Shown piece after piece: positions 8,781-33,353 of a DNA stretch of 37,430 bases (the first letter of the stretch is position 1; every line of letters begins with the position of its first letter). Location: positions 1 through 37,430 of the IMG/VR virus record IMGVR_UViG_3300017613_000256; one strand, written 5' to 3'. Under the pieces are notes generated by a model, which did not search any database, was not told where the DNA came from, and saw only the letters and a list, made by a program, of their open reading frames with translations. Source of the DNA: a virus. Position numbers and translations under genes: made by a program.

Positions 8781-9089
8781 CTATGTGTAAGTTCTTTCAC
8801 CATTCCTGAAAAGACCATGAACTGTGAAAATTGCAACCTCTCCCCTGCCTGTCCACCCTGTGAGTGTCAGACCAGACTGCAATCTATAATCACCCTCTTG
8901 ATCAAAATCATCTGCAATGATTGTGTAAGTCAGATAGTCTGTGCCATAGATGGTTGGTGTCCATTCCACCTCTGTTCCATCTGGCTTTTGCACATACAGT
9001 TTCAGGGCTGTTGCTCCTGTTATGATCTGACCACAGTTGACCCTGATCTCTGTGCCAACATCACCAACATAATATTTCTCATCTGCCAT
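8781..9089 (-). CDS. Small beta-rich phage structural protein
   Basis: A 102-residue protein with a clear beta-sandwich pattern: YYVGDVGTEIRVNCGQ, ALKLYVQKPDGTEVEWTPTI, YLTYTI, GDYRLQSGLTL, GRGEVAIFTVHGLF. The 'KPDGTEVEW' core is shared by many short virion proteins near connector or baseplate genes, and resembles the N-terminal domain of upper-baseplate (BppU-type) proteins. Its ATG overlaps the stop of the LDS-repeat gene (TAATG). It could attach the repeat protein to the particle. Assignment is by fold-like pattern and context only. Confidence 0.55.
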   Translation of the reverse strand: MADEKYYVGDVGTEIRVNCGQIITGATALKLYVQKPDGTEVEWTPTIYGTDYLTYTIIADDFDQEGDYRLQSGLTLTGWTGRGEVAIFTVHGLFRNGERTYT

Positions 9090-9262
9090 TAGACCACCTC
9101 CAAATCAATTACAGAGTCTATATTTAAAATTGGGTTTATATGTGAATCTAAACTCAATAAAGGTTCAATATTTGAATCAAGAGCAATCTGCACATTTATG
9201 TGTGAGTCAAGCTCAATGATTGTGCTTATGTATGAGTCAAGGTGCAATTCATCTATTGCCAT
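9089..9262 (-). CDS. Decapeptide-repeat protein (xLDSxIxxxx repeats)
   Basis: 57 residues made almost entirely of five 10-residue repeats with LDS at fixed positions: LDSYISTIIE, LDSHINVQIA, LDSNIEPLLS, LDSHINPILN, IDSVIDLEVV. The spacing is exact. Such regular short repeats usually fold as stacked beta-structure or a fibre. The chosen ATG has no ribosome site and lies 10 bases inside the upstream gene, whose last residues carry the same repeat in another frame. It may be made by re-initiation or as a frameshifted tail of the upstream protein. Length and frame arrangement are odd enough that sequencing error is also possible. Confidence 0.55.
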   Translation of the reverse strand: MAIDELHLDSYISTIIELDSHINVQIALDSNIEPLLSLDSHINPILNIDSVIDLEVV

Positions 9263-10296
9263 AGTATTGAATCCAAACTTAATAAAGGGTTGATGTATGA
9301 GCTCAACCTCAAAACCTCTGCTCTTGGTTCTGTGTAAACAAAATGACCCATGACCCCAATTTGTTGAACTGCGTTTTGCTTCCAATATTCATAAACTTGT
9401 TGATCAGTCAAATTCACAAGCACATGGAGAGTTGTGGTTGGAATAAATAAAATTGTTGGTGCAGAACCCTCATCATTTCTTGCCCATCCCTGAAAGCCCG
9501 GTCCTGATGTATAAGTGTTCCTCAACCTTAAAAGTGCAATTTCTGCATCAGGGTCTGTGTCACCTGTCAGATCATCATCTGTCCATGCACCAAGCACAGG
9601 TGCACTTCTGATTGGTGGATCAACATGGGCTGTCCAATCCCTCTTGAAATATCCTATTTCATAAAACCAAGATTGAAAAACAGGGCTTTTTCCTCCTGAC
9701 TTTGATGGATAAAATTCATATCTGTCCTCACTATCAACCCCAACAATTCCAAATGTGCTGTTTCTTGCAATATTATTAGGATGCCAATTGTTTGTGCTCC
9801 CAAAGTTCCTGTATCCCCAATCCCCTGCATTATCCCATTCAATCCAGAGGAGAGCTCCAACAGCATTTCCAGCATTTGCTCCCAATATTCCAGTAATATC
9901 TCTTGTTACCCATTGATTGCCAAGCCCTGTAAATGCTTGCTCTGCATCAGCATTTGCAATGAAAGCATCACCTCCAAATTCTGCATGAATATAAAATGTG
10001 TTGCTTGCATCTATGGAAAAGAGCTCAACTTCATTTGAAGCATTAAGGGCAACAGGCACTTGTCTGGTCATATCACCAAGCAACTTTGCCTTTGTTCTTG
10101 TGTCTGAAATACCACTCCCAACAGGTCTGACAGCATTCACCTTGCTGTTGGCAGATGTATTTTTGATCTGAATGACAACTGCTTTTGGATCATCATGGTT
10201 CAAGAAAGGTGTCAGGTCAATTGTTTCCCATGTCTGATTTTTGAGCATCCCTGTGATTTCAACAAGCTCATTATTTGCCAGAATGGTTTTTGACAT
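9253..10296 (-). CDS. Beta-rich virion surface or fibre-like protein ending in LDS repeats
   Basis: 347 residues, mostly strand and turn: Asn, Gly, Thr, Trp and Tyr are frequent and there are no long helices. It begins MSKTILANNELVEITGMLKN, has Trp-rich loops at about 160-185 (WIEWDNAGDWGYRNFG) and ends RLSSYINPLLSLDSILWQ, which is one and a half copies of the decapeptide repeat that continues in the next, out-of-frame gene. It starts inside the acyl carrier protein gene with a 26-base overlap. It could be a head fibre or decoration, or an acceptor for the modifying enzymes encoded upstream. No database family was recognised. Confidence 0.5.
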   Translation of the reverse strand: MSKTILANNELVEITGMLKNQTWETIDLTPFLNHDDPKAVVIQIKNTSANSKVNAVRPVGSGISDTRTKAKLLGDMTRQVPVALNASNEVELFSIDASNTFYIHAEFGGDAFIANADAEQAFTGLGNQWVTRDITGILGANAGNAVGALLWIEWDNAGDWGYRNFGSTNNWHPNNIARNSTFGIVGVDSEDRYEFYPSKSGGKSPVFQSWFYEIGYFKRDWTAHVDPPIRSAPVLGAWTDDDLTGDTDPDAEIALLRLRNTYTSGPGFQGWARNDEGSAPTILFIPTTTLHVLVNLTDQQVYEYWKQNAVQQIGVMGHFVYTEPRAEVLRLSSYINPLLSLDSILWQ

Positions 10297-10519
10297 GGCT
10301 CACAATATCCTCAATGGTGTCAATCGTCTTTACAAGCTCAACAACCTCCTCCTCTGTTCCAACAATATTGAACTCATTTGCCACACCAACAATCACCATC
10401 AACAATCCAAGACTGTCAATTCCAATATCTTCAAACCTTGACTCTGGCTTGAAATACTCAAAATCCTTTTCCAGAACCTTGGCAATTATTTCACAGACTA
10501 TCTCAAGCAGATCTTTCAT
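10271..10519 (-). CDS. Acyl carrier protein
   Basis: The start chosen gives 82 residues, the normal ACP length. The central motif EDIGIDSLGLLMVIV contains the DSL tripeptide whose Ser receives the 4'-phosphopantetheine arm, at about residue 37. Helix 1 (LLEIVCEIIAKVLE), helix 2 after DSL and a C-terminal helix (TIEDIVSHVKNH) follow the four-helix ACP plan, and the protein is acidic. It would carry an acyl or amino-acyl group as a thioester. It shares an operon with a FabG-like reductase and a glycosyltransferase fusion; no ketosynthase, acyltransferase or PPTase is visible, so a host holo-ACP synthase would have to activate it. Confidence 0.85.
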   Translation of the reverse strand: MKDLLEIVCEIIAKVLEKDFEYFKPESRFEDIGIDSLGLLMVIVGVANEFNIVGTEEEVVELVKTIDTIEDIVSHVKNHSGK

Positions 10520-10730
10520 GAATCTTTTTCCCAACTTCCAAATTCTTCTTGAGGTTATACACCCCAAAAACAGACCTTGCCCTTTCCAAAACTGTGTCTG
10601 CTTCTTTTGATGCCCTCTCAAGATGTGTAATGGCTTTGATTGCAATGAACACATGGGCAAACTGATCTTTCTCACTCATTGCCCTGAAATCATTTAATGA
10701 TATGTTACTCCCCAAGTCCTCCTGTGCCAT
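10503..10730 (-). CDS. Small helical protein of unknown function
   Basis: 75 residues starting MAQEDLGSNISLNDF after an excellent GGTGGAGGG site. The rest is one or two long amphipathic helices (FAHVFIAIKAITHLERASKEAD; TVLERARSVFGVYNLKKN). It overlaps the C-terminus of the upstream 222-residue gene by 26 bases and the ACP by 17 bases. No family was recognised. Tight overlap with ACP suggests the two may work as partners, but this is inference. Confidence 0.55.
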   Translation of the reverse strand: MAQEDLGSNISLNDFRAMSEKDQFAHVFIAIKAITHLERASKEADTVLERARSVFGVYNLKKNLEVGKKIHERSA

Positions 10731-11373
10731 CCCTCCACCTTTCAAATTGTGCCCTCTCCCTTGCTGTCACTTCAATGTCCAGATAAGGCAGGTCAAAGGC
10801 TTCTGCTTCTGCATCCAATTCAACCCATGACCCATCTCTGATATTCCAATCTCTTTTCAATGTTGGAACATGCTTCTGGTTGTAAAAATCAATGAGCTCA
10901 AAAAACACCCTCAATGTCTGGATTGCAGAGAGCTCATTTTCCTTTGGGCAGAGGGTCATGTTGTATGGTGATCTTAACCTGTCAGGAAATATCTGCCTTT
11001 CAATCTTCAATGACTTCCAAGAGAAATGCTCCCTGTCTTTCTTTGGCAAAAGCTCTGCTCCCAAACCCAACTCAACCATCTTAAAATCATACCAGCTTAT
11101 ACCTTTGCCAATTGCCAGACCCCTTTCCCAAATGTAATCAGTTATATTAATTTTTTTCAGATAGTAATTATCTTTTGCAAGCCCATAAAGATTCTTTGCT
11201 TCATGGAGAATCTTTTTGAATATGTCAAGATCACCATCTTTCAAATGTTTGCTTGCAAGATATTTGTCATAAAAAATTATGGCTTGGGCTTGAAAATCAT
11301 CATTTGAAATGATGCCTGTTTTGTATTCTTTCCACTTATTATCCAGAGCCTTTGCATATTCAGCCTTGTTCAT
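10705..11373 (-). CDS. Unknown 222-residue protein of the ACP/reductase cassette
   Basis: Starts with ATG after GGAGATACAGG and overlaps the reductase stop by 4 bases. The N-terminal half is charged and helical (AKALDNKWKEYKTG; FKKILHEAKNLYGLAKDNYYLKK). The C-terminal half has a TLCPKENELSAIQTLRVFFELIDFYN segment and an acidic end. No nucleotide-binding, membrane or catalytic motif was identified. It could be a scaffold or an enzyme of a family not recognised here. Its fixed place between reductase and ACP suggests a shared pathway. Confidence 0.55.
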   Translation of the reverse strand: MNKAEYAKALDNKWKEYKTGIISNDDFQAQAIIFYDKYLASKHLKDGDLDIFKKILHEAKNLYGLAKDNYYLKKINITDYIWERGLAIGKGISWYDFKMVELGLGAELLPKKDREHFSWKSLKIERQIFPDRLRSPYNMTLCPKENELSAIQTLRVFFELIDFYNQKHVPTLKRDWNIRDGSWVELDAEAEAFDLPYLDIEVTARERAQFERWRDGTGGLGE

Positions 11374-12044
11374 CCTGTATCTCCACCAAGACCACCATCA
11401 ATCCTGATAATATCACCTGTGATATATAGGGATTTATCAGATGCCAGAAAATAAACCATTTCTGCAACATCAGATGGCTTTCCTGCCTTGTTCATGGGCA
11501 CAAAGCACTTGATCCTTTCTTGGCTTGCTGTCAGATCCAGCTTGTCCTTTGTCATGTCAGTTTCTATCAGACCCGGGGCAACAGCATTGACTCTTATATT
11601 AAGCCTTGCAAGTTCTCTTGAGAGTGCCCTTGTAAAGCCCAACAGCCCTGCTTTTGATGCACAATAGTTGGCTTGACCCACCATGCCCATGATGGCGGCT
11701 GTTGATGAAATATTGATGATGCTCCCTCCTGCTTTCATCATGGAGAACAGGACAGCCTTTGTCATGTTGAAAGCACCATTGAGATTAATGTCAATGACAC
11801 TATGCCATTCTGCTGGTGTCATTAATAAAAATGGCTTGTTTGCTGTCACTCCTGCATTGTTCACCAAGCAATTGATTGCTCCATATTTTTCAATTGTTTC
11901 CTTTGCAACACTCTTGCACATCTCAAAATCTCTCACATCTTCTTTGCTTGATGTGATCCTGACATTCCAGCCATTGCTTTTGAATGTTTCAGCACATGCT
12001 TTCCCTATTCCCCTGTTGCCACCTGTAATGATCACAGTTTTCAA
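11370..12044 (-). CDS. Short-chain dehydrogenase/reductase, FabG-like
   Basis: A 224-residue classical SDR. The N-terminal TGGNRGIG (residues about 7-14) is the dinucleotide-binding turn, NNAG is at about 64-67, the ISS motif near 116 supplies the catalytic Ser region, and YCASK at about 129-133 holds the Tyr-x-x-x-Lys pair. PGLIETDM and the final TGDIIRIDGG are typical of 3-oxoacyl-ACP reductases. It would reduce a keto group with NADPH; with the ACP two genes downstream an ACP-bound substrate is plausible. A sugar or other alcohol substrate cannot be excluded. It overlaps both neighbours by 4 bases. At 224 residues it is slightly shorter than bacterial FabG. Confidence 0.85.
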   Translation of the reverse strand: MKTVIITGGNRGIGKACAETFKSNGWNVRITSSKEDVRDFEMCKSVAKETIEKYGAINCLVNNAGVTANKPFLLMTPAEWHSVIDINLNGAFNMTKAVLFSMMKAGGSIINISSTAAIMGMVGQANYCASKAGLLGFTRALSRELARLNIRVNAVAPGLIETDMTKDKLDLTASQERIKCFVPMNKAGKPSDVAEMVYFLASDKSLYITGDIIRIDGGLGGDTG

Positions 12045-14881
12045 AAGTATTTCTCTCCATAAATCCTTGTGGTTTCTTCTGTCAGGTGATCCATCAAGCC
12101 CTTTATGTCCTCCCTGCTTGCAAACATGCCCACCATTGGCTGTTTTGCAATTGAGCTCTTGTGCCCATTGGTCTGTGCTTTCAAGTCAACTGAAAACTCA
12201 ATGCCACCTCCAAGCACATTGACTGCTTCTGAATAATAGTGCAATGACTCTGAAATGAATCTTGAGTTGCCCTCCTCAAGCAATTCCCTCCACAGATTTA
12301 TAATGGTTTGGGCATACTTCTGCACATCAACTGTGATCAGTCCACCATTTGATTCAAGGGTGTATTTCACAAGATGAGCCAGATCCCTCAACCAGAGAAA
12401 CCTGCCAAGTTTCCTGTCAGGGTGTTCTTTCCTGTCTTTCTGCATGAGTGGAAAGTTCCTCTCAAACCTTTTTCTCCTGATGGTTTCTGTTGCATATCCT
12501 GTGTGCATGATGGCAATGTCCTGAATGATGATGATCTTTCCACACCCCTCATTGTATGTCGTTTCAGGGTGCTCATGAATCATGCCATAAAACTTGACTC
12601 CCCTGTGATTTCTGAACAGCCTGACAGGATAATCTGTTTTGAATAATGCAGGTGGGTCAACCCCATAATGGTGCTGTTTGACAGCATATCCATTATAGCA
12701 GTTGGATCTTAAATATTTTGGGAGGTTCTCAACCTGCTCAAGTGTTTCATCAGAATCAATCCACAGAATCCAATCCATCTTGGCTTTTGCAATGGTGTAA
12801 TTCCTTGCAACAGCAAACCCAACTTTGAGAGGTGATGGGATGCTGAATGTGTGAGCTCCAAATTGCTCACACACACTCTTGGTTTCATCTGTGGTGGTTT
12901 CATCAATTCCCACAATGATTTCATCAGCAACCTTGCCAACTCCCTTGAGTGTTTTCCCAATTGTTAGTTCTGAATCTTTCGCAATGATGCACACAGAAAG
13001 GGTTTCCTGTGGTGCTTGAGATCTCAACTTTCTTTCATAGTCAATTTGATCAATGTCCTTTTCAGAGTTTTTGAATGTCACAAAGAAGTGACCAAGACCA
13101 TCCCTGTGAGGTAATGCCAAGAGCTTGTATTCTTTTTGACTGCCAAACAGGTCAGAGAGATCCTGCCTTTCAAGGTGGTGAATGTGAGCCCTCCAACCCT
13201 TGTGCTCATCATATCCAATTGCTTCCCAAGCACCATAAGGAGTTGTTATGAGCATGACACCATCAGGTGCAAGATACTCTTTCAACTGCCTGACAAGATC
13301 TGCTGGATCTGGAACATGCTCAAGCACCTCTGCAATGATGATCATGTCAACTTTTTGGGTGAGCTCAAACTCTCCAACTGTGCTGTGAATAAACAGGTTG
13401 TCAACCAACTCATGATCTTCTTTATATTTCAAAGCCCATTCTTTTGCTGTCTGAATGTTGCTCTCATCAATATCAACCCCAAAATATCTTATATCAGGAA
13501 ATCGTTTCATCAGGTTCATGACATAATGACCATGAGCACAACCATAATCAAGGATTGAGTTGGGCTTGAACCCATCAACAAACAAGGCAGTCTGTTCAAA
13601 TCTTGGCTGTCCTGTCAGATCCTCCTCACCATAAATGACACCCCTGTTTTTTTCATATTCGTAATATTTTTGATAATGCTCCTCATAAGCACCATCATAC
13701 ATGAAGTGATAGTTTTTCCAAAGTTGCTCCTTGGCTTGCTCCTTGATGCAATAAACATCAGAGAAGTGCTCAAGGTGCTTAAACAGCCTTGTTTGATCCT
13801 GTGACTTCTCCTTGAGGATCTTTTTAAAAAGCCCATCCCATTGAAGTGCCACACTCTCCCATGACTGATTCTTTTTGAGGGCTTTGTGGTGCAGGTTCTG
13901 CCATTTGGAGGGATCTGCAAGGATCTGTTTCACAGTCTTGGTGAACAGTTTTTTGTCCACCTCACCATCTTTCAATGGCAACAGGACAGAGCCAGAATCC
14001 TTGCATGTTTCTGGAAGTGCCGCCTGTTCAAATGAAATGAATGGTGTGCCACCAGCATTTGCTTCCAGCACCATGATGCAACTTGTGTCCTCAAAGGTGG
14101 TGGGATAAACATATAACTCACACCTTGCCAGCAGTTCATAAAGTTTATGTTTGCCCAATGAGCCCATGTTGGTCACATTTGGGAGTTCTTCACACCTTGC
14201 CCACAGGTAATCATAAAAGTCTTTCATGTGCCCTGTGGTGTTCTGGTAACTGCACACATATAAATGGCAGTCTGGCAGTTCCTCCATGATGCTGTTTTCA
14301 CCCACCAACTCATTCAGACCCCTCTCTGGTCTGCCAGCAAAGCACAGAGATCCTTTCTCCCTTGAATTCTTGTCAATGTCATTGAAAGCATCATAGTCAA
14401 CACCATTCCATGTTGAAACAATGAAATCTTTGGGCACATCATAAATGTCTGCAACCTGATTCTTGTGAAACTCTGAAACTGTCAAGATCCTGTCAATGTT
14501 GATCAGGTGGGTCTGGACAATCTTTGAGTTTCTCAACAATGCAAGGTCATGCAACCACCACAGTTTCACCTTGGCATTTACAGGGTTGAGAAAGCCCATT
14601 GGATGCCTTTGAATAATCACCACATCATAAGGCACTTGCATCACAAAATGAAATGCATCACCCAAGAGATATTGCTTGGTTGCTTTGCCATGATATTCAT
14701 ATAAAACACCATCCCATGAACCCCTGTCCTTTGAGTTGGTAAACACTATGACACTATGACCCAACTTGGAAAGCTCTCTTGCCACATAATATGCTGATGA
14801 TTCAGATCCTCCAAGGCTTGCACCATTAGGGATTGACTCACCATTGAAAGGCATGCCTGTTGCATAAATAGCAATGTGCAT
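12041..14881 (-). CDS. Three-domain glycan enzyme: GT4 glycosyltransferase, class I methyltransferase, GT2 glycosyltransferase
   Basis: 946 residues. Domain 1 (about 1-360) is a GT4/GT-B glycosyltransferase: GGSESSAYYVARELSKLGH near 28, TVSEFHKNQV near 137, FAGRPERGL near 177, and an E-x7-E-like FEDTSCIMVLEANAGGTP near 265. Domain 2 (about 400-600) is a SAM methyltransferase with ILDYGCAHGHYV near 441 and IIAEVLEHVPDP near 515. Domain 3 (about 633-900) is a GT2/GT-A transferase with SVCIIAKDSELTIGKTL, GIDETTTDET, and the DxD metal motif in WIDSDET near 710. Together they could build and methylate a short glycan. The gene sits beside capsid genes, so virion or host-surface glycans are both possible targets. 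A GGGGAGAAAAT site precedes the ATG. Confidence 0.85.
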   Translation of the reverse strand: MHIAIYATGMPFNGESIPNGASLGGSESSAYYVARELSKLGHSVIVFTNSKDRGSWDGVLYEYHGKATKQYLLGDAFHFVMQVPYDVVIIQRHPMGFLNPVNAKVKLWWLHDLALLRNSKIVQTHLINIDRILTVSEFHKNQVADIYDVPKDFIVSTWNGVDYDAFNDIDKNSREKGSLCFAGRPERGLNELVGENSIMEELPDCHLYVCSYQNTTGHMKDFYDYLWARCEELPNVTNMGSLGKHKLYELLARCELYVYPTTFEDTSCIMVLEANAGGTPFISFEQAALPETCKDSGSVLLPLKDGEVDKKLFTKTVKQILADPSKWQNLHHKALKKNQSWESVALQWDGLFKKILKEKSQDQTRLFKHLEHFSDVYCIKEQAKEQLWKNYHFMYDGAYEEHYQKYYEYEKNRGVIYGEEDLTGQPRFEQTALFVDGFKPNSILDYGCAHGHYVMNLMKRFPDIRYFGVDIDESNIQTAKEWALKYKEDHELVDNLFIHSTVGEFELTQKVDMIIIAEVLEHVPDPADLVRQLKEYLAPDGVMLITTPYGAWEAIGYDEHKGWRAHIHHLERQDLSDLFGSQKEYKLLALPHRDGLGHFFVTFKNSEKDIDQIDYERKLRSQAPQETLSVCIIAKDSELTIGKTLKGVGKVADEIIVGIDETTTDETKSVCEQFGAHTFSIPSPLKVGFAVARNYTIAKAKMDWILWIDSDETLEQVENLPKYLRSNCYNGYAVKQHHYGVDPPALFKTDYPVRLFRNHRGVKFYGMIHEHPETTYNEGCGKIIIIQDIAIMHTGYATETIRRKRFERNFPLMQKDRKEHPDRKLGRFLWLRDLAHLVKYTLESNGGLITVDVQKYAQTIINLWRELLEEGNSRFISESLHYYSEAVNVLGGGIEFSVDLKAQTNGHKSSIAKQPMVGMFASREDIKGLMDHLTEETTRIYGEKYF

Positions 14882-14895
14882 ATTTTCTCCCCTTT

Positions 14896-15048
14896 TTATT
14901 TCGCAGGTTTTGTCATTCTTTCAGCAGATGTTTCTTTCTTATTCTCTGCCTTTTTCTTTTTTGGTTTGGGTGGTGTTTCACCCCTCCTTATCAGATCCTC
15001 CTTGGTGGGCTTAATCTTGCCCTCATTGATCAGATCATCTCTTAACAT
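14896..15048 (-). CDS. Small Lys-rich protein
   Basis: 50 residues from an ATG with an AAAGGAGAAACC site; a longer reading from 15081 has no site. The sequence starts MLRDDLINEGKIKPTKEDLIRRG and ends in a Lys/Glu-rich tail with PPKPKKKK. Short basic proteins of this kind often follow capsid genes and may contact DNA or the shell. No family was recognised. Confidence 0.6.
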   Translation of the reverse strand: MLRDDLINEGKIKPTKEDLIRRGETPPKPKKKKAENKKETSAERMTKPAK

Positions 15049-15108
15049 GGTTTCTCCTTTTGAAAGGGAGGGCTTTGACACCCTCCCTGTCTGTTAAAGG
15101 GTTTCAGA

Positions 15109-16071
15109 TTAAACAGAGGTGACATTGGTGATCAGGAATGAGAGAGGTGCTGATGTGACTTTCTCATCCTGATAGTAACCAATTTCAACCTCCTCTGACT
15201 TTTTCTTGCTGTCAAAGGGATGCCTTTCAACACCCATGTTTGGCAGACCCGGCTTGCTCCACCTGAATGAATACATGAATGATGGCTCATCAATGCTTGG
15301 TGCAGGTGGTGCATAGTAGGCAAGCACATTGTCAAGCCACAATGGGCTCAATGATGCACTTTGACCCTCTGGTGCTGAATTGTAATAAGCGGCACCAACC
15401 AAGAACTGATCAACTTCAAAGATTGCCTTGACCTGCTCCCTTGATGCATATCTTGGCTGTCCTTGACCAGAATCACCATAGAGGATTGCAATCACATCTG
15501 CATGTCTCCTAAAGTGCCTCCATGCAAGCTCTCCCATGATAAGCCTGTTGGGTCTGTACCCTGTCAGATCCTGCACATTGTCCAAGGCTGTCTGAACATC
15601 TGCAAGTGGGGTGCTGTTCCCTGTGGCATGATCCATCCAATCTGATATGACTGTTGAATAAGATCCCACATTTGAGCCTGATGTAACCTGCAAGCAGACT
15701 CTGGATTCCCAAGCAATTGCAACCTTGCCCTTGAGGAATCTTGCCTTGCCATCCCTCAATTCCTTGATAAATCCAGCATCCATGTTTTCCCTGTCCTCAA
15801 GGGTGAGCCCTGTTTTCAAAGCATAGTTTTTCGCAAAATATGCTTCTGAACTCACATCTTGGGAGATCAGGTTTGCTTCTGTGCCCGGGGCTCTCTTATC
15901 ATCCTCAACCCTCAAGGCATCTGCCTGACTCCAGATGGGATAAATATCACTCTGTTTGCCAACAGAAACAATTGGTGCAATCAAGTCAGCGATCATTCCC
16001 ATAGGTCTGTAACTCATTGCAACATTGCTCAAGTGTTGGTCAATATGTAAATCTCTTCCGGTTGCTCCCAT
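15109..16071 (-). CDS. Major capsid protein
   Basis: 320 residues after the strongest ribosome site of the window (AGGAGGTGATC), as expected for the most abundant virion protein. The N-terminal DQHLSNVAMSYRPMGMIAD followed by LIAPIVSVGKQSD..YPIW is characteristic of a group of HK97-fold capsid proteins associated with Mu-like head modules. The centre has a NRLIMGELAWRHFRRH segment near 175, and the C-terminal part includes YYAPPAPSIDEPSF and EVEIGYYQDE. It follows the protease and decoration genes in the order protease - decoration - capsid. Confidence 0.85.
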   Translation of the reverse strand: MGATGRDLHIDQHLSNVAMSYRPMGMIADLIAPIVSVGKQSDIYPIWSQADALRVEDDKRAPGTEANLISQDVSSEAYFAKNYALKTGLTLEDRENMDAGFIKELRDGKARFLKGKVAIAWESRVCLQVTSGSNVGSYSTVISDWMDHATGNSTPLADVQTALDNVQDLTGYRPNRLIMGELAWRHFRRHADVIAILYGDSGQGQPRYASREQVKAIFEVDQFLVGAAYYNSAPEGQSASLSPLWLDNVLAYYAPPAPSIDEPSFMYSFRWSKPGLPNMGVERHPFDSKKKSEEVEIGYYQDEKVTSAPLSFLITNVTSV

Positions 16072-16084
16072 GTTAGATCACCTC

Positions 16085-16465
16085 CTATCCTATAAAATCA
16101 CTCGTATTGGCATAGAGTGGGTTTGTAAAATCAAGTAAGCCTGTTCCAATTGATCCACTTGTGACAGCGGCAACTGCCCTGCCAACAATGTAGTCACCAG
16201 AGCCAGCAGTTGAAAGGAAACCAGAGGTTGCAACAGTCATTCTTGCACCTATGGCAACAGCACCACCAGCCCTGAACTTCATGATCCCTGTGAAAGCAAT
16301 TGTGGCATGCTCATTGGTTTTGGGTTTGTTCTGCAAAATCCCAATGGCTTCTGAACCATTATTTGCAACCTTGCCATCATCAAGGGCAACAGCCAGATAT
16401 TGATGAGTGTCAAGATCTTCCTTTGCCTGTACTGTGAAACTTTTAAACCAATTTGCAAATGACAT
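16085..16465 (-). CDS. Capsid decoration/stabilising protein, DUF2190-like
   Basis: A 126-residue Gly/Ala-rich beta protein. The arrangement DLDTHQYLAVALDDGKVANN, EAIGILQNKPKTNEHATIAFTG, GAVAIGARMTVATSGFLS, GDYIVGRAVAAVTSG is the typical pattern of DUF2190-type proteins, small trimeric proteins that sit on the capsid lattice. GGGAGGTGAAAAGTA precedes the start. It lies directly between protease and capsid genes, and its start overlaps the protease stop by one base. Confidence 0.75.
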   Translation of the reverse strand: MSFANWFKSFTVQAKEDLDTHQYLAVALDDGKVANNGSEAIGILQNKPKTNEHATIAFTGIMKFRAGGAVAIGARMTVATSGFLSTAGSGDYIVGRAVAAVTSGSIGTGLLDFTNPLYANTSDFIG

Positions 16466-17706
16466 TACTTTTCACCTCCCTCATCTTTGGCATAGGCTTC
16501 TGCCAATTTAGGATCTTTTTGCAAAACAATGTTTGAAGCATCCTCATAGGTCACATCAGGATGCTCCTGCATATATTCCTTGGTTTTTTGTGAAAGCAAT
16601 TCAGCAGGATCTGTCACATCAAAGGTTTTCTTTTTGTCATGAGCCTTTTCATCTGTGACAAGGATCTTGTCCACCTTTTCAAAGATCTTTTTGATCATCT
16701 CAAAGTCAAAGATGTGACCATCATCCTTTGAGTAAGTTCTTTTCTCAAGGTCTGTGACAATCAGATCCCTCTGATAAGGCAACATCTTTCCTGCCTTAAC
16801 CATTTCCTCACAATGTGCTGTAATGCCCTCAACCTCTGCTCTCTGCTTTGCTTCAACTGCTTCCTGCTCCTGCTTGGCAAGTCTATCAGCATATTGTTTT
16901 TTTTCAGCCATCTCCTGCTCTGCTTTCTTTTCAGCATCTTCCTTTTCCTGTTCCAGCTTTGCAAGTTTGGCTTTGTATTCTTGTTCATTCATTTCAGTAA
17001 ATTCCTTTTTGTCTGTGTTGATAATTTTTCCTGCTTCATCTGTTTCAAAAGCATAAGCCTTTAGGCTGTCAAACGAACCCTTGGAGGTGGATTGACTCAA
17101 AAATGCTTCAAGATCTTCAAGATTGTCAACAGCAGGAATGTCTGCACCCAATAGTGCCACACCAGCAAGAACCTTGGAAAAGGTTTCACCAGCATGCTTG
17201 TAATTCCAATAAACTTCTGAACTTATCCTCTTATATCTGCCTGATTGGATTGCCCTCATGATCACATCTGGAACTTGTGTCAATGTTGCAATCAATTTTG
17301 TGCCCACTTTCTTCAAAGACTTAACCCACCCAATTGCAGGTTGACCATCCTTGATTTGCTTTTCATTATGACCCAACTTAACAGGTGGCTTGATTGATTC
17401 CTTGAGAGCTTCAAAGTTTGCCACCATGCTCTCAAGATCCTTGTCTGTGAACTTGTCCTTGTTCCACACACCAACACTCATCACCTCTGCATCAAACTCA
17501 TGGGTCTTTGCCAACTTCACCCACTTATCATCCTGCTTTTTCCAGCCAGCATTGGTGACTGCACCCCAAGCAATCTTGTTGGCTTTTTCCTCATCCTGAT
17601 CTTTCTCATGGGATGAGTTGAAAGCATTTCTGAATATTGTCTGTGCTTCTGCTGGAAGTGCCTTTTTGACTGCATCTGGCAAATCATTATTTGTTTTGTA
17701 TGGCAT
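16465..17706 (-). CDS. Mu gpI-like head maturation protease with N-terminal ChaB domain and scaffold-like tail
   Basis: 413 residues in three parts. Residues 1-62 match a ChaB domain (LPDAVKKALPAEAQTIFRNAFN followed by EEKANKIAWGAVTNAGWKK). Residues about 68-200 resemble the gpI protease of Mu-like phages: VMSVGVWNKDKFT, VKLGHNEKQ, GQPAIGWVKSL, GRYKRISSEVYWNY and AGVALLGADIPAV. Residues about 235-300 are a Glu/Lys/Gln coiled coil, as in scaffolding parts that are cut away during head maturation. A ChaB module on the protease is uncommon in reference Mu-like phages but known in environmental ones. GAGGGAGTTTC precedes the start. Confidence 0.75.
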   Translation of the reverse strand: MPYKTNNDLPDAVKKALPAEAQTIFRNAFNSSHEKDQDEEKANKIAWGAVTNAGWKKQDDKWVKLAKTHEFDAEVMSVGVWNKDKFTDKDLESMVANFEALKESIKPPVKLGHNEKQIKDGQPAIGWVKSLKKVGTKLIATLTQVPDVIMRAIQSGRYKRISSEVYWNYKHAGETFSKVLAGVALLGADIPAVDNLEDLEAFLSQSTSKGSFDSLKAYAFETDEAGKIINTDKKEFTEMNEQEYKAKLAKLEQEKEDAEKKAEQEMAEKKQYADRLAKQEQEAVEAKQRAEVEGITAHCEEMVKAGKMLPYQRDLIVTDLEKRTYSKDDGHIFDFEMIKKIFEKVDKILVTDEKAHDKKKTFDVTDPAELLSQKTKEYMQEHPDVTYEDASNIVLQKDPKLAEAYAKDEGGEK

Positions 17707-17825: not shown

Positions 17826-18533
17826 TCAAGCAACCTTGATCAACCTGCCAACCTCTGATATGTGGTGACAGGTTTCACACAGTTGAAATGGTTGCACCTG
17901 CTTCTGTGTGAGATCCTCTGTGACATGGGAGAAAACACCTGTTGCAAATGCATCAATGCAACAGTTGGTCACATCTCCATTTGACATGACCATCACCTGC
18001 CCTTTGTTAAGCCAAGGACACTCCATGCCTTTTGTTTTGTAATAATCAGGGTGAAACCAATCCACCTGCCCTGCCCAATTGTTTGGGCTGGTCATAAAGT
18101 CCATTGAAATCTGTCCATCAATTCCAACCTGTCTGAAATACCTGATTGTCTGTGCAACAGATCTGGCATTGTGACCTGTTATGTCAATTGATGAGATCCC
18201 TGCTTTCTTTAGTTTGACAGCAAGCTCAAATGTCATGTTGTTGCCATTTGTGTTCAGGTGGAGCTTTTGCCTGATTGGTAAATGCTTTCTTGCATATTCA
18301 ACCATCTCTGCAAGGTCTGGATGCAATGTGGGCTCACCCACACCAAAGAGATTCAACTCCCTCTGTGTGCCCTGCTTGCTGAAATGGATCACCCACTTGA
18401 TTGATTCATGAAATGTTTTCCAATCCATCCAGCCTGTTTCCCTGTGCTTGCCCTGTATTGGAGCAGGGCAATATTCGCACCTGTTGTCACAGATGGATGA
18501 GGTTTCAATTGTGTTGATTGTGGCTATTCTCAT
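17826..18533 (-). CDS. Radical SAM enzyme with SPASM-like C-terminus (copy 1)
   Basis: 235 residues. The CDNRCEYC motif at residues 15-22 is CxxxCxxC, the cluster-binding signature of radical SAM enzymes. NLFGVGEPTLHPDL near 63-76 is the GGE-like SAM motif, and LNTNGNNM follows. The C-terminus has a SPASM-like Cys set: MECPW, GDVTNCCIDAF and LCETCHH. Such proteins bind an auxiliary Fe-S cluster and modify peptides or sugars. At 235 residues it is a compact version. A second related copy lies 529 bases upstream. The ATG lies inside the last codons of the HTH gene (29-base overlap). Substrate unknown. Confidence 0.85.
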   Translation of the reverse strand: MRIATINTIETSSICDNRCEYCPAPIQGKHRETGWMDWKTFHESIKWVIHFSKQGTQRELNLFGVGEPTLHPDLAEMVEYARKHLPIRQKLHLNTNGNNMTFELAVKLKKAGISSIDITGHNARSVAQTIRYFRQVGIDGQISMDFMTSPNNWAGQVDWFHPDYYKTKGMECPWLNKGQVMVMSNGDVTNCCIDAFATGVFSHVTEDLTQKQVQPFQLCETCHHISEVGRLIKVA

Positions 18534-19062
18534 TTAATGTGAATCCTTTTTCTCTTGCTTTTTTATAAACAAATTTCTCTATTTTCGCAAATAATTCAAA
18601 GGTTGGATAAAACCCTCTTTCAAGTTGACTATATCTTGCTTGTGAAATGCCCATTTTTTCGCTCACATCAACCTGCCTTAAACCCAACACTACACGAAAC
18701 ACTTTAAGAAAGTTTCCTTTAAGTTTTCCCACCGATGCCTCATAGATAAGAGAATCAATGCCCTCTTGATAAGTGAGGGGTCTGTTTGATGTTAAAATAT
18801 CTATCCAATCAAAAGGTGGCTTTTTGATTTTTTTTATTCCTAAAGCTTTTAACCAAGCAAGACCATCCATTTTTTGTTTTACTTGTTTTACTTTTGGAAT
18901 TGGCTTTGATATTGAATTGAATCGCTGATAATCTTGCTCACAAGAAAAAATATAATCAATGCCATAGGTTTTTTCGTCTATCATTTCGTCATTAAGGTAT
19001 GAAGATGCAACATCATCTGAAAAATAATTATTGTTTGTTTTCATAAACTCAAAAACATCCAT
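18505..19062 (-). CDS. HTH (XRE/Cro-like) protein inserted between the two radical SAM genes
   Basis: 185 residues from MDVFEFMKTNNN; the ATG overlaps the upstream stop. The C-terminal third carries a helix-turn-helix: LKVFRVVLGLRQVDVSEKMG then ISQARYSQLERGFYPTFEL, like transcriptional regulators of the XRE family. The N-terminal part (DYIFSCEQDYQRFNSI; KPPFDWIDIL) is unfamiliar. It is more A/T-rich than its neighbours and has 7 CpG in 558 bases against about 2-3 per kb elsewhere, so it looks recently acquired. It might control the cassette or be an antitoxin-like remnant; no toxin gene is adjacent. Confidence 0.75.
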   Translation of the reverse strand: MDVFEFMKTNNNYFSDDVASSYLNDEMIDEKTYGIDYIFSCEQDYQRFNSISKPIPKVKQVKQKMDGLAWLKALGIKKIKKPPFDWIDILTSNRPLTYQEGIDSLIYEASVGKLKGNFLKVFRVVLGLRQVDVSEKMGISQARYSQLERGFYPTFELFAKIEKFVYKKAREKGFTLNENSHNQHN

Positions 19063-19781
19063 TAGGCAACCTCCCTCCCATTCAGGATGTATTCTGGAAT
19101 TGTTTGATGGCATGTTTCACAAAGCTCATAGGGCTTGATCTCTCTTTTAAGCAGATCATCATCAAACACATGACCAAACACACCCAAATTCCTGTAATCA
19201 TAACAGCAGGGAGTGACATTGCCCTCACTCTGAATATAACCTCTGCCATCAATAAGTGGGTCACATTGAATTTTCAGTTTCACATCAATGCTGTTTTCTG
19301 GCTCTAACTGTCCAGCCCAATTGTGAGAGTACAGGACAGCACCAAGATTGACAACACCCTTGAGCCCTGCATTGTGCATAATATAGGCAGACCTCCTCAC
19401 ATGGAATGGTGAATGGATGCTCAAGTCAATCTGGTCAATGCCTGAATCTTTCAGATCCTTTGCAAGCCCTCTGGTCATGTTGACTCCATTGGTGGAGAAG
19501 CAGACTCTGCGATCATCAACAACAGCCCTGACTCTTTTTATCCTTTCGATCAGATCAGGATCAAGGCAACTCTCTCCATTGCCATTAAGATTGATCTCCT
19601 GCTGTGTTCCCCTGTCACAGAGGATTTTCAGCCAATGCAATGACCTTTCAAACACAGAGTTTGTCATTATCCCTGCATCTCTATCTGGATGCTTCACCAA
19701 AAGCCTGTTGATGCAATATTTACATGCAAGATTGCAGACAGATGAAAGCTCAATTGTGGTTATGGTTTTAAGGGTTATCAT
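19062..19781 (-). CDS. Radical SAM enzyme with SPASM-like C-terminus (copy 2)
   Basis: 239 residues with CNLACKYC at residues 16-23 as the radical SAM cluster motif, NLNGNGESCLDPDL near 64-77, FSTNGVNM near 94-101, and a C-terminal SPASM-like set: IQCDP, GNVTPCCYDYRN and LCETCHQT. It shares the framework of the downstream copy (same Cys positions, the same -WAGQ- element near residue 155 and the same LCETCH end), so the two are paralogues. Together they may act in turn or as a pair on one substrate. It overlaps the zinc-ribbon gene by 4 bases. Confidence 0.85.
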   Translation of the reverse strand: MITLKTITTIELSSVCNLACKYCINRLLVKHPDRDAGIMTNSVFERSLHWLKILCDRGTQQEINLNGNGESCLDPDLIERIKRVRAVVDDRRVCFSTNGVNMTRGLAKDLKDSGIDQIDLSIHSPFHVRRSAYIMHNAGLKGVVNLGAVLYSHNWAGQLEPENSIDVKLKIQCDPLIDGRGYIQSEGNVTPCCYDYRNLGVFGHVFDDDLLKREIKPYELCETCHQTIPEYILNGREVA

Positions 19782-20155
19782 ATTGCTTCTTCCATGCTGA
19801 TATATCTATCAATTAAACTTAAATTTACAGATGATCTGCATTTTGTGCATAACAAACAAATATATTTCCAATCACCAAGTTTTCTAATTATATCAAATTC
19901 ATGATCATTGCATCTTGGACAATAAATTAAATCCATATTTGGCAATGCACCCCTCCCATCTTCACTTACCCCAAAATCATTGATAACAAAATGGATGCAT
20001 TTGCATGAGGATTTTATTTCTATATGATTTAAATCATCACAGGTTGATGCACATATCCATGTAATCTTTTCATGACATTTCCTACACTTAAATGTCATAA
20101 GCATCTTATCATCAACTTCTGTTCCTGCAAGCCTTCTCAAATCTTCAACTTTCAT
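19778..20155 (-). CDS. Zinc-ribbon protein of unknown function
   Basis: 125 residues with several CxxC knuckles: CRKCH near 24-28, CASTC near 35-39, CKC near 51, CPRC near 79-82 and CLLCTKC near 99-105. This is enough for two structural zinc sites in two similar halves. It begins MKVEDLRRLAGTEVDDKML. It overlaps the sulfotransferase-like gene by 4 bases. It might recruit the acceptor molecule or bind nucleic acid; no specific family is recognised. Confidence 0.6.
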   Translation of the reverse strand: MKVEDLRRLAGTEVDDKMLMTFKCRKCHEKITWICASTCDDLNHIEIKSSCKCIHFVINDFGVSEDGRGALPNMDLIYCPRCNDHEFDIIRKLGDWKYICLLCTKCRSSVNLSLIDRYISMEEAI

Positions 20156-20721
20156 ATCCTCTCCAAGTTAATTCCTGCCTGATCATAAGTGCTGTGTCCT
20201 GTGTTGTGTGTGCCTTTCATCATGTTCTTTTCATACCTCACACCCAAGAAAGCACAGATTCTCCTCAACTCAACTGCTGTCCTCAAGAGCAGATCCTCAA
20301 ATGACACTTGGATGATCCTGTCAGGGTGCTTCTCCCTGATCTGCCAATATAGGGATCTTGACCATTCCCAATTTTCCTTATAGATGCTCTCTTTCTTGCC
20401 TTTCCAATATCTTGAAAACCTCCTGATGAGCCACACCATCTTGAAGTGCTCTGCAAGGCACAAAATGTCTTTATCTGTCCAACCTCTTGATTTCAACTGC
20501 TCAAGAGGAACTTTGTTTGCCCATATCACTCCATTATCTTCAACCAGCTTTGCCAGAGCAATCCAATGCAGGATCTCATTGACTGCTGGCTGAACCCTGC
20601 CACTCTTGTTTTCCTCAAATTCAACATGCAGTTTTGAGTGGGCATTTAAAAGACCCCTCAACAATGATGTGCCACCACCACCATTGCCAATCAACATAAA
20701 GCGATTGAATGAACTGATCAT
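20152..20721 (-). CDS. Sulfotransferase-family protein
   Basis: 189 residues. The N-terminal FMLIGNGGGGTSLLRGLLNAH (residues 8-28) is the P-loop-like 5'-phosphosulfate-binding signature of sulfotransferases, in which GxxxGGTS..LL..LL..H is typical. Later IIQVSFEDLLLRTAVELRRIC (about 136-156) matches the region after the 3'-phosphate-binding site, followed by FLGVRYE. It would transfer sulfate from PAPS to a hydroxyl of a sugar, lipid or protein. It is short for the family (usually 250 or more), so the acceptor-binding part is reduced. It overlaps the portal gene stop by 4 bases. Its presence among virion genes suggests a structural or surface substrate. Confidence 0.7.
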   Translation of the reverse strand: MISSFNRFMLIGNGGGGTSLLRGLLNAHSKLHVEFEENKSGRVQPAVNEILHWIALAKLVEDNGVIWANKVPLEQLKSRGWTDKDILCLAEHFKMVWLIRRFSRYWKGKKESIYKENWEWSRSLYWQIREKHPDRIIQVSFEDLLLRTAVELRRICAFLGVRYEKNMMKGTHNTGHSTYDQAGINLERI

Positions 20722-22907
20722 GCAAATCCTGCTTGTGGCTCAATCCTTGGCTTTGTGCTTTCCTTGCCATCCCAATTGTCAACAGTTGTCACAGGAATTA
20801 AAATGGATCTGCACATATAATGATTGGGAGGAACATAAGCACCAAAATCTCTCTGGATCTTGCCATGCAAGTGTGAACAAATCTCTGTTGTTCTTGAATC
20901 CAAAATGGCTGAATATTCATAAGCCCTGACAAAGCCTTTCAGGTCAGGATCTCCAAACACACTCATCCTTGCCTGATTGACTGCATCTGCTGTGTTGGTT
21001 CTGGCAATATTTTCCAGCCTGTGAGGAATGTTGACTGCCCTCCCACCAGCATCCACCTCTGGCAACATCTGCATGAGCTCTGTGTCATAAGCCATTGCAC
21101 TTATTGTGTCAGATAGGGTCTTGTCATACTTGATGGCATTGTCCAGCACATTCTGAACAGCCTTGAGCACATCTTTGTCAACCACCCCTGCAATCTTCAT
21201 TGCCCTGCTTGAGAGATATTTCTCTGCTTGCCCTCTGTCCATGCCCGGTCCAATTCTCTGGAAAGATCTCTTTCTTGGCAATTCCTTGATTGCCATTGCA
21301 TAACCATCATCAAGTATAACTTGGAGATTGTTTCTAATCACTTTCCTCAATTGGCTCACAAGACCAGATGGCATTGCAACAACCAAGATCTCTTTGGGCT
21401 TAACACTTCCAAATGACCTGTCACCACAAACCTTGATGATCTGCTTTTGCAGGGAGAGGTTGGTCTTTGCCATCACATCATTCATGTCTTTAATGAAAAT
21501 GCTGTCCTGCCTGTCCAGCGATTTTTCCAGCCTTGAAAAGTTCACTCTTTTCACCCAAGGCTTATCTTGAAACTCTTTCAGGATGAGCTCTGCCTTTTCA
21601 AATGGTTGGGCATTGACCCATTCCTCATTGTCTGGCACTTCTTCTGGTTCTTCTTCTGGCTCAACCTCCTCCTCCACCTTTTCAGGAAAGCCCACCATGT
21701 TTCTCAAGTATGCTTCATCAGAATCAGACTTGGTGACAGCACCACCCTTGACCAGATCATTCCAAGTCTTTGCAATCTCCATCTTTTGCTCATCAGATAT
21801 GGGCTCAAATGTAAATGCTGGAAAGTCTTTAGTGCCAAAGTTCCAGAGGGCAAGCTCCTTGAACATCTGCTCATTGAGTGCTTGGGAAAGCCTTGAAGCA
21901 ATTGCATCCAAGATCCAGAAGAATGAGAGGAGTTGTGTGTCACCCAATGCCCTGCTCCCATGCGGCCCTTGCTCTGCAAGCCCTAACAGGTTAGGCATCA
22001 GGATGGATCTTGAAATGCCTGTGTTGTAACCAGAGATTGCTTCTTTAAAGGCTTCTGTCCTTAATGGCTGGATTGTATTCAGGTTGACTGATTCTGGCAG
22101 TTGTGCTGACATTCTGGCAGATATGTTGTTGAGAAGATTTTGGAGGTTCTGCTTCTCCACCTCACTCAAGTTGCCTGTCACTTGAGCCCACACAAATCCA
22201 CTTGCATGTCTTTCAAGGTGAATGTTCTGGAACTTGATGGCAATGTCCTTTGACCACCAATCCCTGTAACAAGCCCTTAAATCAGATTCACCATAATGGG
22301 CATCTATGTCAGACTGATGAACAAAGTGAATGACTTTGTTGAGAGGGATCTCCTTTGGCTGTCCTGCTTGATCCTGCTCCAACTTGAGAATGTTCCCATG
22401 ATCATCTGTGATGAACCCACCATCAAATGAGTCAAAGGGTCTTAACTTCAATGACTTGACTCCCCAATATGCCCTTTCTTGCCAATCAATTGGGCAATAG
22501 ACTTTCTCTGTGATGGAAAAGCCATTGTATAAACCAGACAGGATGCCAAGCAGGTTGTCATCAAATGAGCCCTCTATCTGGTCAACCATCACATTAAAGA
22601 AATCTGCCATCTCTGCATGATCCTGCCTTTCCTCTCCATTCTCATCCACACCCACTTGGAAATAATAATCTCTTGATATGACAGCATGTGACTTGAATTG
22701 GAGAGCGGCTTTCACCTGATCATCCCTCATCATCTTCTTATAGATGCCAGCACCCTTGCTCCCAATGAGAGCATCTGGATTATATTTGGGAAAGTCTTTT
22801 GCTCTGTAAAGATTGGAGTCCTCCCAACCAATCTCACCCTGCTGTGGAGGTGGAATCTCTGTTGTTGGGTCTGTGTATCTTGATTTGATGAAGTTTATTA
22901 AGCCCAT
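20718..22907 (-). CDS. Portal protein (DUF935/Mu gp29-like) fused to a MuF-type head morphogenesis domain
   Basis: 729 residues from MGLINFIKSRYTDPT; an AGAGGGTTAAA site supports this ATG, while a GTG at 22949 has none. Residues about 60-430 show the portal pattern: YNPDALIGSKGAGIYKKMM, HAVISRDYYFQVG, LGILSGLYNGFSITEKVY, VIHFVHQSD, NLLGLAEQGPHGSRALGD. Residues about 480-729 contain the MuF part, ending AILDSRTTEICSHLHGKI, then PPNHYMCRSILIPV, the D..T..C..H-G and H..CRS signature. Fusion of gp29 and gpF is an unusual economy; they are separate genes in Mu. It forms the ring through which DNA passes. It lacks a neighbouring separate gp30. Confidence 0.85.
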   Translation of the reverse strand: MGLINFIKSRYTDPTTEIPPPQQGEIGWEDSNLYRAKDFPKYNPDALIGSKGAGIYKKMMRDDQVKAALQFKSHAVISRDYYFQVGVDENGEERQDHAEMADFFNVMVDQIEGSFDDNLLGILSGLYNGFSITEKVYCPIDWQERAYWGVKSLKLRPFDSFDGGFITDDHGNILKLEQDQAGQPKEIPLNKVIHFVHQSDIDAHYGESDLRACYRDWWSKDIAIKFQNIHLERHASGFVWAQVTGNLSEVEKQNLQNLLNNISARMSAQLPESVNLNTIQPLRTEAFKEAISGYNTGISRSILMPNLLGLAEQGPHGSRALGDTQLLSFFWILDAIASRLSQALNEQMFKELALWNFGTKDFPAFTFEPISDEQKMEIAKTWNDLVKGGAVTKSDSDEAYLRNMVGFPEKVEEEVEPEEEPEEVPDNEEWVNAQPFEKAELILKEFQDKPWVKRVNFSRLEKSLDRQDSIFIKDMNDVMAKTNLSLQKQIIKVCGDRSFGSVKPKEILVVAMPSGLVSQLRKVIRNNLQVILDDGYAMAIKELPRKRSFQRIGPGMDRGQAEKYLSSRAMKIAGVVDKDVLKAVQNVLDNAIKYDKTLSDTISAMAYDTELMQMLPEVDAGGRAVNIPHRLENIARTNTADAVNQARMSVFGDPDLKGFVRAYEYSAILDSRTTEICSHLHGKIQRDFGAYVPPNHYMCRSILIPVTTVDNWDGKESTKPRIEPQAGFA

Positions 22908-23161
22908 TTTAACCCTCTGATTTTTTTTCAGCCCTTTGTTATCAACCACTTACACTTGCCATTTCCTGATTTGCTCCCTGCAAACCCTTGCCAACTCTTG
23001 TCAACAAAAAAATAAATTTATTTTCGTGCCAGCAATATCAATGCTTTAGACAATCAATTCCTTGCAAATCCTTTAACACCAACACTTTCTGAAAACCCAA
23101 TATGGTATAATAAGATTGAATGTTCCAAATTGCTCTTTGAAAATCTGAAAGGAGGTAACCC
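22908..23161. other. Spacer between the portal gene and the rightward gene pair
   Basis: 254 bases. Apart from the extended -10 promoter near 23103 it has an A/T-rich palindrome AATAAATTTATT near 23010-23022 and no clear ORF on either strand. No convincing leftward promoter for the portal gene was found; transcription from the terminase side through the plus-strand pair is possible. Confidence 0.5.
23103..23111 (+). promoter_or_regulatory. Extended -10 promoter for the rightward gene pair
   Basis: TG-G-TATAAT is a perfect extended -10 element; the -10 hexamer is 23106-23111. No good -35 is present at 16-18 bases, which extended -10 promoters do not need. The start codon of the first gene lies 50 bases downstream after GAAAGGAGGTAACCC. 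Confidence 0.7.
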
Positions 23162-31207: not shown

Positions 31208-31410
31208 TCTTTCCCCAAGTTTTTTATCAAAAAATCCATTTCACATGCAACAAGCAATGCCTGAATGGTCACATCTTTTTTCTGTAAATCCATTTTGTGA
31301 TTTTCCTGTCTTATAAATCCAACTGTCACAGCAGAGATGTTCAGCAGGAACACCACCCACAAAACAAACAGGACAACAAAATCAATTATATCCCTGACCT
31401 TGGTTTTCAT
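31204..31410 (-). CDS. Single-span membrane protein (68 residues)
   Basis: The start at 31410 is fixed by an ATGA overlap with the methyltransferase stop. After KTKVRD a helix of about 25 hydrophobic residues (IDFVVLFVLWVVFLLNISA) is followed by a charged soluble tail (RQENHKMDLQKKDVT) and a second amphipathic helix. The size and coupling to the next mini membrane gene suggest that they act together. Spanin-like proteins have similar size, but no lipobox or matching partner is evident. Confidence 0.6.
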   Translation of the reverse strand: MKTKVRDIIDFVVLFVLWVVFLLNISAVTVGFIRQENHKMDLQKKDVTIQALLVACEMDFLIKNLGKE

Positions 31411-33109: not shown

Positions 33110-33353
33110 CAATGTATTCCTTGTCAGTCCTATATCTAAACTTCATCTCTGGAAACCAAAGGCTCACCTGCCTTGGTGCAATCCTCTGGTTGATCAGTTC
33201 TGCAAAGGCATCCATGTCCTCTTTGTTCCTGAAATGCACAATAATCCTCCTGTCTGATGTGAGATCTTCTTGGTCAAACTCTGGCATGCCCTCCCACTCA
33301 TCTGACCACCATTCCTTGTTTTCAAACAGAGGGATCTGCTTCTTTTCTGTCAT
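33099..33353 (-). CDS. Small protein often found with phage DNA-modification genes, unknown function
   Basis: 84 residues. It opens MTEKKQIPLFENKEWWSDEW followed by GMPEFDQEDL, then an alpha/beta segment RRIIVHFRNKEDMDAFAELINQ and a final PRQVSLWFPEMKFRYR. Proteins of this pattern ('WW..EW.GMPEF' and 'WFPE') recur in environmental phages, here beside the glycosyltransferase. The strand-helix part with FRNKEDMDAFAEL resembles a ferredoxin-like half. It overlaps neighbours on both sides (11 and 32 bases). Function not established. Confidence 0.6.
   Translation of the reverse strand: MTEKKQIPLFENKEWWSDEWEGMPEFDQEDLTSDRRIIVHFRNKEDMDAFAELINQRIAPRQVSLWFPEMKFRYRTDKEYIDEP

Follow-up and report, generated by a model that had tools for sequence, protein, structure and literature searches.

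Paired BtrN-like radical SAM enzymes in phage head operons suggest a chemically unusual glycan on the virion

Two radical SAM genes lie between the portal and protease genes

The stretch of DNA analysed here (the window) is one complete IMG/VR virus record, IMGVR_UViG_3300017613_000256, of 37,430 bases. Our subject is a pair of radical S-adenosylmethionine (SAM) enzyme genes in its head operon, where the interval between the portal/MuF gene and the protease/scaffold gene holds this pair together with genes for a sulfotransferase, a Cys-rich protein and an HTH_3 protein (Table 1). The genes of the block overlap by a few bases, an arrangement like that of a single transcript. An earlier reading of the letters alone (the original prediction) had described an overlapping block of two radical SAM paralogues, a zinc ribbon and a sulfotransferase between portal and protease genes. 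The block was found as described, but its gene list was incomplete, since the HTH_3 gene separating the two radical SAM genes had been overlooked, and a larger partner, a fused glycosyltransferase (GT)-methyltransferase (MT)-GT gene, falls outside the extent given for it.

Both radical SAM proteins scored above the Pfam Radical_SAM cut-off of 29.5 bits (46.6 bits for copy 1 and 52.1 bits for copy 2), and both carry the predicted CxxxCxxC motif and the common marks WAGQ and LCETCH. They are paralogues with 37% identity over 225 amino acids (E 5e-49). An alignment of 21 relatives revealed 25 invariant columns, among them C16/C20/C23, W155, A156, Q158, C173, G187, C192, C221 and C224 of copy 1. 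The CX3CX2C core motif was kept in 111/112 family members, as were four auxiliary cysteines in the pattern C-x12-20-CxxD-x-CxxC. Next to these four, C193 of copy 1 is variable; within the CC pair, the second residue was kept in 107/112 members, and the His following the last Cys in 91/112, while only three of the 112 had any Cys beyond the last CX2C.

This pattern bears on the subfamily. SPASM proteins are defined by a seven-Cys motif, CX9-15GX4C-CX2CX5CX3C-C, and two auxiliary clusters (PMC6231123), and the truncated Twitch domain has one cluster, which in BtrN is held fully by four cysteines (PMC6231123, PMC9012708). The original prediction had read a SPASM-type Cys set, but both window proteins fell below the Pfam cut-off for SPASM (PF13186), and the family conserves four auxiliary cysteines instead of seven. 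Because these four follow the core in a one-cluster arrangement, and the fold matches as well (see below), the pair is by its sequence of the Twitch (BtrN) type, with one predicted auxiliary cluster site.

The aminocyclitol dehydrogenase BtrN is the closest solved structure

A profile of the family matched BtrN best among solved structures (E 3.4e-17, the next at 3e-9), and BtrN also ranked first with copy 2 as the sole query. The predicted structure of copy 1 was of high quality (predicted local distance difference test, pLDDT, 91; predicted template modelling score, pTM, 0.89). With this model, BtrN was again the best match in Foldseek (E 6e-15) and in VIA-align (Z 20.5 over 217 residues, root-mean-square deviation 2.9 A; next Z 16.5). 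By sequence and by fold, the closest solved structure is therefore that of a radical SAM enzyme that dehydrogenates an alcohol group of an aminocyclitol. In butirosin biosynthesis, BtrN catalyses the two-electron oxidation of an alcohol of 2-deoxy-scyllo-inosamine, and its auxiliary cluster has been proposed to accept the second electron (PMC9012708). The phage enzymes and BtrN (PDB 4M7S/4M7T) have in common a length of about 240-250 amino acids, the core plus Twitch fold, four auxiliary cysteines and a CX3CX2C motif that even carries the same numbering in BtrN as in phage copy 1 (C16/C20/C23). They differ in that sequence identity is only about 20%, and in that the phage enzymes are paired paralogues in a head operon, with no butirosin genes.

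The structures that rank after BtrN in VIA-align are those of ChlB, anSME and a sactisynthase (Z 14-16.5). Their folds open the possibility that a virion protein is itself the substrate of the radical SAM enzymes, through anSME-like side-chain oxidation or a thioether or carbon cross-link, while the GT-MT-GT protein acts separately on the same particle. A shared operon with the capsid genes is consistent with this, but BtrN stands apart from the other matches (Z 20.5; E 3e-17 against 3e-9).

Radical SAM genes of this family occupy slots in head operons

A profile built from both copies recovered 79 IMG/VR loci; copy 2 alone, as a query with its own patterns, found no viral relatives. Since the gene caller missed the radical SAM gene in a few loci (for example L052), presence was recounted with tblastn. 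No relative of either radical SAM enzyme and no full-length GT-MT-GT relative was found in the GenBank phages (50,697 records), and the family therefore has no annotated or cultured relative among them. Matches in bacterial genomes were weak; two, on contigs of Deltaproteobacteria and Myxococcota metagenome-assembled genomes, reached 31-36% identity in a short or ambiguous gene context.

Gene calling and clustering of 81 viral loci placed the radical SAM genes in the head operon in every sampled locus with enough context, which strongly supports the proposed link to virion genes. Two copies were present in 36 loci and one in 45, many of the single-copy loci being cut by contig ends. Where both flanking markers were on the contig, 52 radical SAM genes lay between portal and protease, 13 between capsid and GT-MT-GT, 10 between GT-MT-GT and the first connector (c6) and 2 between the connectors c6 and c7; one further gene was placed between terminase and protease. 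The neighbours of the radical SAM genes were on the same strand in 225/225 cases and within 30 bases in 156.

In a phylogenetic tree the copies fell into four groups. Copy 1 of the window belongs to a clade of 26 rows (support 100/100) and copy 2 to one of 29 rows (100/95), and a further clade of 47 rows (100/99) is itself divided, its two groups (99/97 and 94/92) each holding one copy of most pairs. A tree that separates the copies in this way indicates that the pair is old and has been kept. This suggests that the two paralogues may perform two distinct steps.

We also considered whether the radical SAM enzymes act on a DNA base or a nucleotide precursor. The window encodes a TET-associated glycosyltransferase (TAGT; PF20691, 149 bits) with an adjoining methyltransferase (31407-33112, minus strand), away from the head operon, and this gene hints at DNA base modification in the window phage. 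Among 19 large radical SAM records, however, TAGT was present in the window only and absent from the other 18, and DNA hypermodification through TAGT was rejected on this count. The radical SAM genes moreover lie in the head module and not with replication genes. Known nucleotide-precursor pathways, the outcome that the original prediction had named as contrary to its own view, were likewise rejected (QueE-like enzymes, for example): an NCBIfam scan of the window brought no model near its cut-off for the radical SAM enzymes, nucleotide-pathway models included (best 61.5 bits against a cut-off of 400). We regard a role in DNA or nucleotide modification as very improbable.

A side observation concerns the region just before radical SAM copy 1, where a short ORF on the opposite strand encodes a hydrophobic, membrane-protein-like product. 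It is conserved in eight relatives, for example in L020 (426-596, minus strand), L025 (9830-9988, minus strand) and L005 (841-990, minus strand).

A trifunctional glycosyltransferase is the constant partner

The comparison of gene neighbourhoods also brought out a partner protein of 940-1080 amino acids, encoded downstream of the capsid gene, in which a GT4, a SAM methyltransferase and a GT2 domain are fused. The three domains were confirmed in 17-19 of 19 members. In all 102 loci with a capsid gene upstream of the GT-MT-GT gene on the contig, zero to four genes lay between them, so that glycosyltransferase and virion genes are linked as in a phage virion glycosylation system.

The GT-MT-GT gene accompanies the radical SAM genes closely. 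Of 25 radical SAM loci whose contig runs on for 6 kb or more past the capsid gene, 23 had it in fused form; in the remaining two (L068 and L078) the same three domains were divided between a GT2 gene and an MT-GT4 gene, which immediately precede the radical SAM gene. At the level of records, GT-MT-GT was present in 27/29 and in 10/12 radical SAM records. Four records lacked it: those of L029 and L030 stop short of the capsid gene, that of L085 starts with the radical SAM gene, and that of L042 is a short contig with little past its radical SAM pair. The reverse does not hold: 23/59 distinct loci with portal and GT-MT-GT lacked radical SAM genes, and about 12 changes of state were counted on the GT tree. 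These locus counts rest on best-scoring matches and are not estimates of prevalence. Among loci with enough sequence, radical SAM genes thus occur only where GT-MT-GT genes occur, and not vice versa. This one-way dependence fits a tailoring of the GT-MT-GT product by the radical SAM enzymes. It also speaks against an independent modification of a virion protein, which would need no such tie, and we consider direct modification of that kind unlikely.

The GT2 domain offers a clue to the acceptor. Searched alone against solved structures, the window GT2 domain matched GmaR (1.9e-18), 7msk (2e-12) and SunS (2.4e-9), after which nothing scored below 0.003, and the profile of the whole GT-MT-GT family ranked the same three first. 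The homology with GmaR and SunS (PDB 22ao; 7msp, 7msn) extends over about 200 residues; unlike these proteins, the phage GT2 domain shares its polypeptide with a methyltransferase and a GT4 domain. GmaR acts as a glycosyltransferase on flagellin, SunS on a cysteine of sublancin. With these as nearest matches, protein is, by analogy, the likely acceptor class, and our best guess, given that the gene keeps its place behind that of the capsid, is a virion protein. Candidates are the capsid protein, the decoration protein and the products of variable genes after GT-MT-GT. PMC11256854 and PMC12619734 cite reports of capsid glycans in mycobacteriophages such as Che8 (Freeman 2023), in which phage glycosyltransferases were likewise proposed or shown to decorate capsid proteins. 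In the mycobacteriophage Maravista, the GT genes are described as lying near the 3' end of the genome (PMC11256854), whereas the window has a fused GT4-MT-GT2 gene right after the capsid gene, and radical SAM genes in addition.

The module could instead make or modify a host surface glycan and serve in seroconversion or superinfection exclusion. GT4 domains, which are common in lipid-linked glycan synthesis, would suit such a role. The glycosyltransferases of temperate phages often act in this manner (PMC12619734). All placements are, however, in the late head operon, on the same strand and beside the capsid gene, and the GT2 domain is nearest to glycosyltransferases of proteins and peptides. 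Chiefly for its head-operon setting, we judge a host glycan to be a rather improbable product.

The likeness to SunS also touches on the suggestion, raised by the original prediction, that a ribosomally synthesized and post-translationally modified peptide (RiPP) encoded nearby is matured by the radical SAM enzymes. SunS-like GT2 domains occur in glycocin clusters, and the locus has two radical SAM copies with short ORFs in the vicinity. The RiPP maturases of the SPASM/Twitch class (SkfB, ChlB, CteB) resemble the phage enzymes in the radical SAM core and a related C-terminal fold, but the phage enzymes have neither a RiPP recognition element (RRE) domain nor a second auxiliary cluster, and no precursor peptide was found for them. 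At 235 amino acids they are bare core-plus-Twitch enzymes without a leader-binding domain. RRE/PqqD domains were detected in 0/19 large records, while control genomes were positive. The search for a precursor that had been called for revealed no short ORF conserved across the radical SAM family. The most widely shared were a head-operon protein, present in 9 loci, and overlapping short ORFs, present in at most 8. As both the short-ORF clustering and the PqqD search came out against it, RiPP maturation was rejected as the main explanation, and we see only a very small chance that it is correct.

Some features around the GT-MT-GT gene are worth recording. In L068 (6612-10711), and likewise in L078, the protein is split and reordered, with a GT2 gene, then an MT-GT4 gene and then the radical SAM gene. 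The gap between capsid and GT-MT-GT genes holds, in at least nine phages, a small protein starting with MLRDDxIxxGxxKPT (window 14896-15048, minus strand; L020 6375-6626), and some proteins of this type carry a C-terminal Rho_N-like domain. Between the GT-MT-GT and connector genes, L012 (14751-16271), L060 (8595-10487) and related loci encode Laminin-G-like proteins with small companions; these could possibly be surface fibres or glycan acceptors. In L166, a head operon without radical SAM genes, the portal gene is preceded by a gene that probably encodes a sugar epimerase-like protein (1665-2768), and GT-MT-GT by an extra glycosyltransferase-like gene (9001-9966), both read by eye.

A possible pathway for a reshaped virion glycan

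The combined data led us to propose that a virion protein, probably that of the capsid, receives a methylated glycan made by the GT-MT-GT protein, and that the sugars of this glycan are oxidised or epimerised by the two radical SAM enzymes. We give this proposal an even chance of being right. The first sugar would be attached by the GT2 domain, the acceptor probably being the capsid or the decoration protein; extension of the glycan would fall to the GT4 domain and its methylation to the MT domain. The radical SAM enzymes would then oxidise a secondary alcohol to a ketone, with net loss of two hydrogens, on sugar carbons of the glycan or of its donor, and the second electron would pass to the auxiliary cluster, in line with the proposal for BtrN; alternatively, they would epimerise these sugar carbons. 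The two paralogues may act at two positions. Further decoration could come from the sulfotransferase and from FkbM and type-11 methyltransferases, and in the window also from the SDR (short-chain dehydrogenase/reductase) and the carrier protein. Dehydrogenation or epimerisation of sugars was only the second choice of the original prediction; it is now favoured, with BtrN as the nearest structure and a GT-MT-GT gene on the capsid side in every relative with enough sequence. The fuller picture, in which uncultured, widespread tailed phages carry on their capsid a protein-linked glycan with sugars that a dedicated radical SAM pair converts to ketosugars or epimers, we hold a little more tentatively.

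Several points weigh against the proposed pathway. The genes may lie in the head operon because they are expressed late and not because their target is on the virion. In the profile alignment, the NRGG loop of BtrN reads NWAGQ in the phage family. Arg152 of this loop contacts the BtrN substrate, and the difference indicates that the phage enzymes probably have another substrate. After BtrN, the structural comparison ranks RiPP and anSME enzymes next, and the function of SPASM/Twitch proteins is hard to predict from similarity (PMC6231123). Finally, the sequences show the enzyme class, the family, its confinement to head operons in the sampled loci and its one-way dependence on GT-MT-GT, and from these we infer glycan, acceptor and reaction.

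Few phage systems that glycosylate the virion are known. Phage virion glycosylation and BtrN-like radical SAM enzymes have each been described, but in the literature searched we found no paper that joins radical SAM enzymes with virion glycosylation. If the proposal is true, a single head operon brings together glycosyltransfer of the protein type, methylation, sulfation and a pair of radical SAM steps to give elaborate phage surface sugars, which perhaps hide the phage from defences or bind hosts or surfaces. The radical SAM proteins would then constitute a new family of BtrN-like enzymes with more than 100 sequences in four groups. In place of the vague annotation "radical SAM domain protein", the data offer a specific hypothesis for a pathway and suggest a phage shell decorated with a chemically unusual glycan.

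Accessory genes of the window

Table 1. Positions and features of the genes discussed (window coordinates).
Gene product	Position	Strand	Features
Radical SAM/Twitch copy 1 (clade A)	19062..19781	-	239 aa; radical SAM cluster C16/C20/C23; WAGQ 155-158; auxiliary Cys C173/C192/C221/C224
Radical SAM/Twitch copy 2 (clade B)	17826..18533	-	235 aa; C15/C19/C22; auxiliary Cys C172/C191/C219/C222
HTH_3 DNA-binding protein, separates the two radical SAM genes	18505..19113	-	202 aa; C-terminal HTH_3; likely start 19062
Cys-rich, possibly zinc-binding protein	19778..20155	-	125 aa; accessory
Short sulfotransferase, accessory tailoring gene	20152..20721	-	189 aa; Sulfotransfer_3
GT4-SAM methyltransferase-GT2 trifunctional protein, core partner	12041..14881	-	946 aa; GT2 at about residues 627-860
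Small protein separating capsid and GT-MT-GT genes	14896..15081	-	likely start 15048, MLRDD...
Major capsid protein (Phage_cap_E), candidate glycan acceptor	15109..16071	-	
Decoration-like protein, candidate acceptor	16085..16465	-	assigned by position and conservation in relatives only
Head maturation protease/scaffold	16465..17706	-	ChaB domain
Mu-type portal fused to MuF head morphogenesis domain	20718..22949	-	
FabG-like SDR, directly downstream of GT-MT-GT	11370..12044	-	window-specific accessory
Acyl/peptidyl carrier protein (PP-binding)	10271..10675	-	window-specific accessory

Among the accessory genes of the block, the HTH_3 gene showed no conservation in the relatives. The predicted zinc ribbon is indeed Cys-rich, but reached the cut-off of no curated family. 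In the window, four genes after GT-MT-GT (9253-12044, minus strand) encode the FabG-like SDR, an unknown protein of 222 amino acids, the PP-binding carrier and a protein of 347 amino acids with no Pfam match; none of this set was common to the relatives seen.

The short sulfotransferase was correctly predicted, passing the cut-off for Sulfotransfer_3 with 36.1 bits, and relatives of similar length (177-200 amino acids) are present in other phages. The same slots in related loci hold genes for sulfotransferases, FkbM methyltransferases and type-11 methyltransferases. Such genes were found in 12/36 radical SAM-positive loci and in 0/25 loci without radical SAM genes, a difference to which we attach little weight because the loci are related and because it was from radical SAM loci that these families had been defined.

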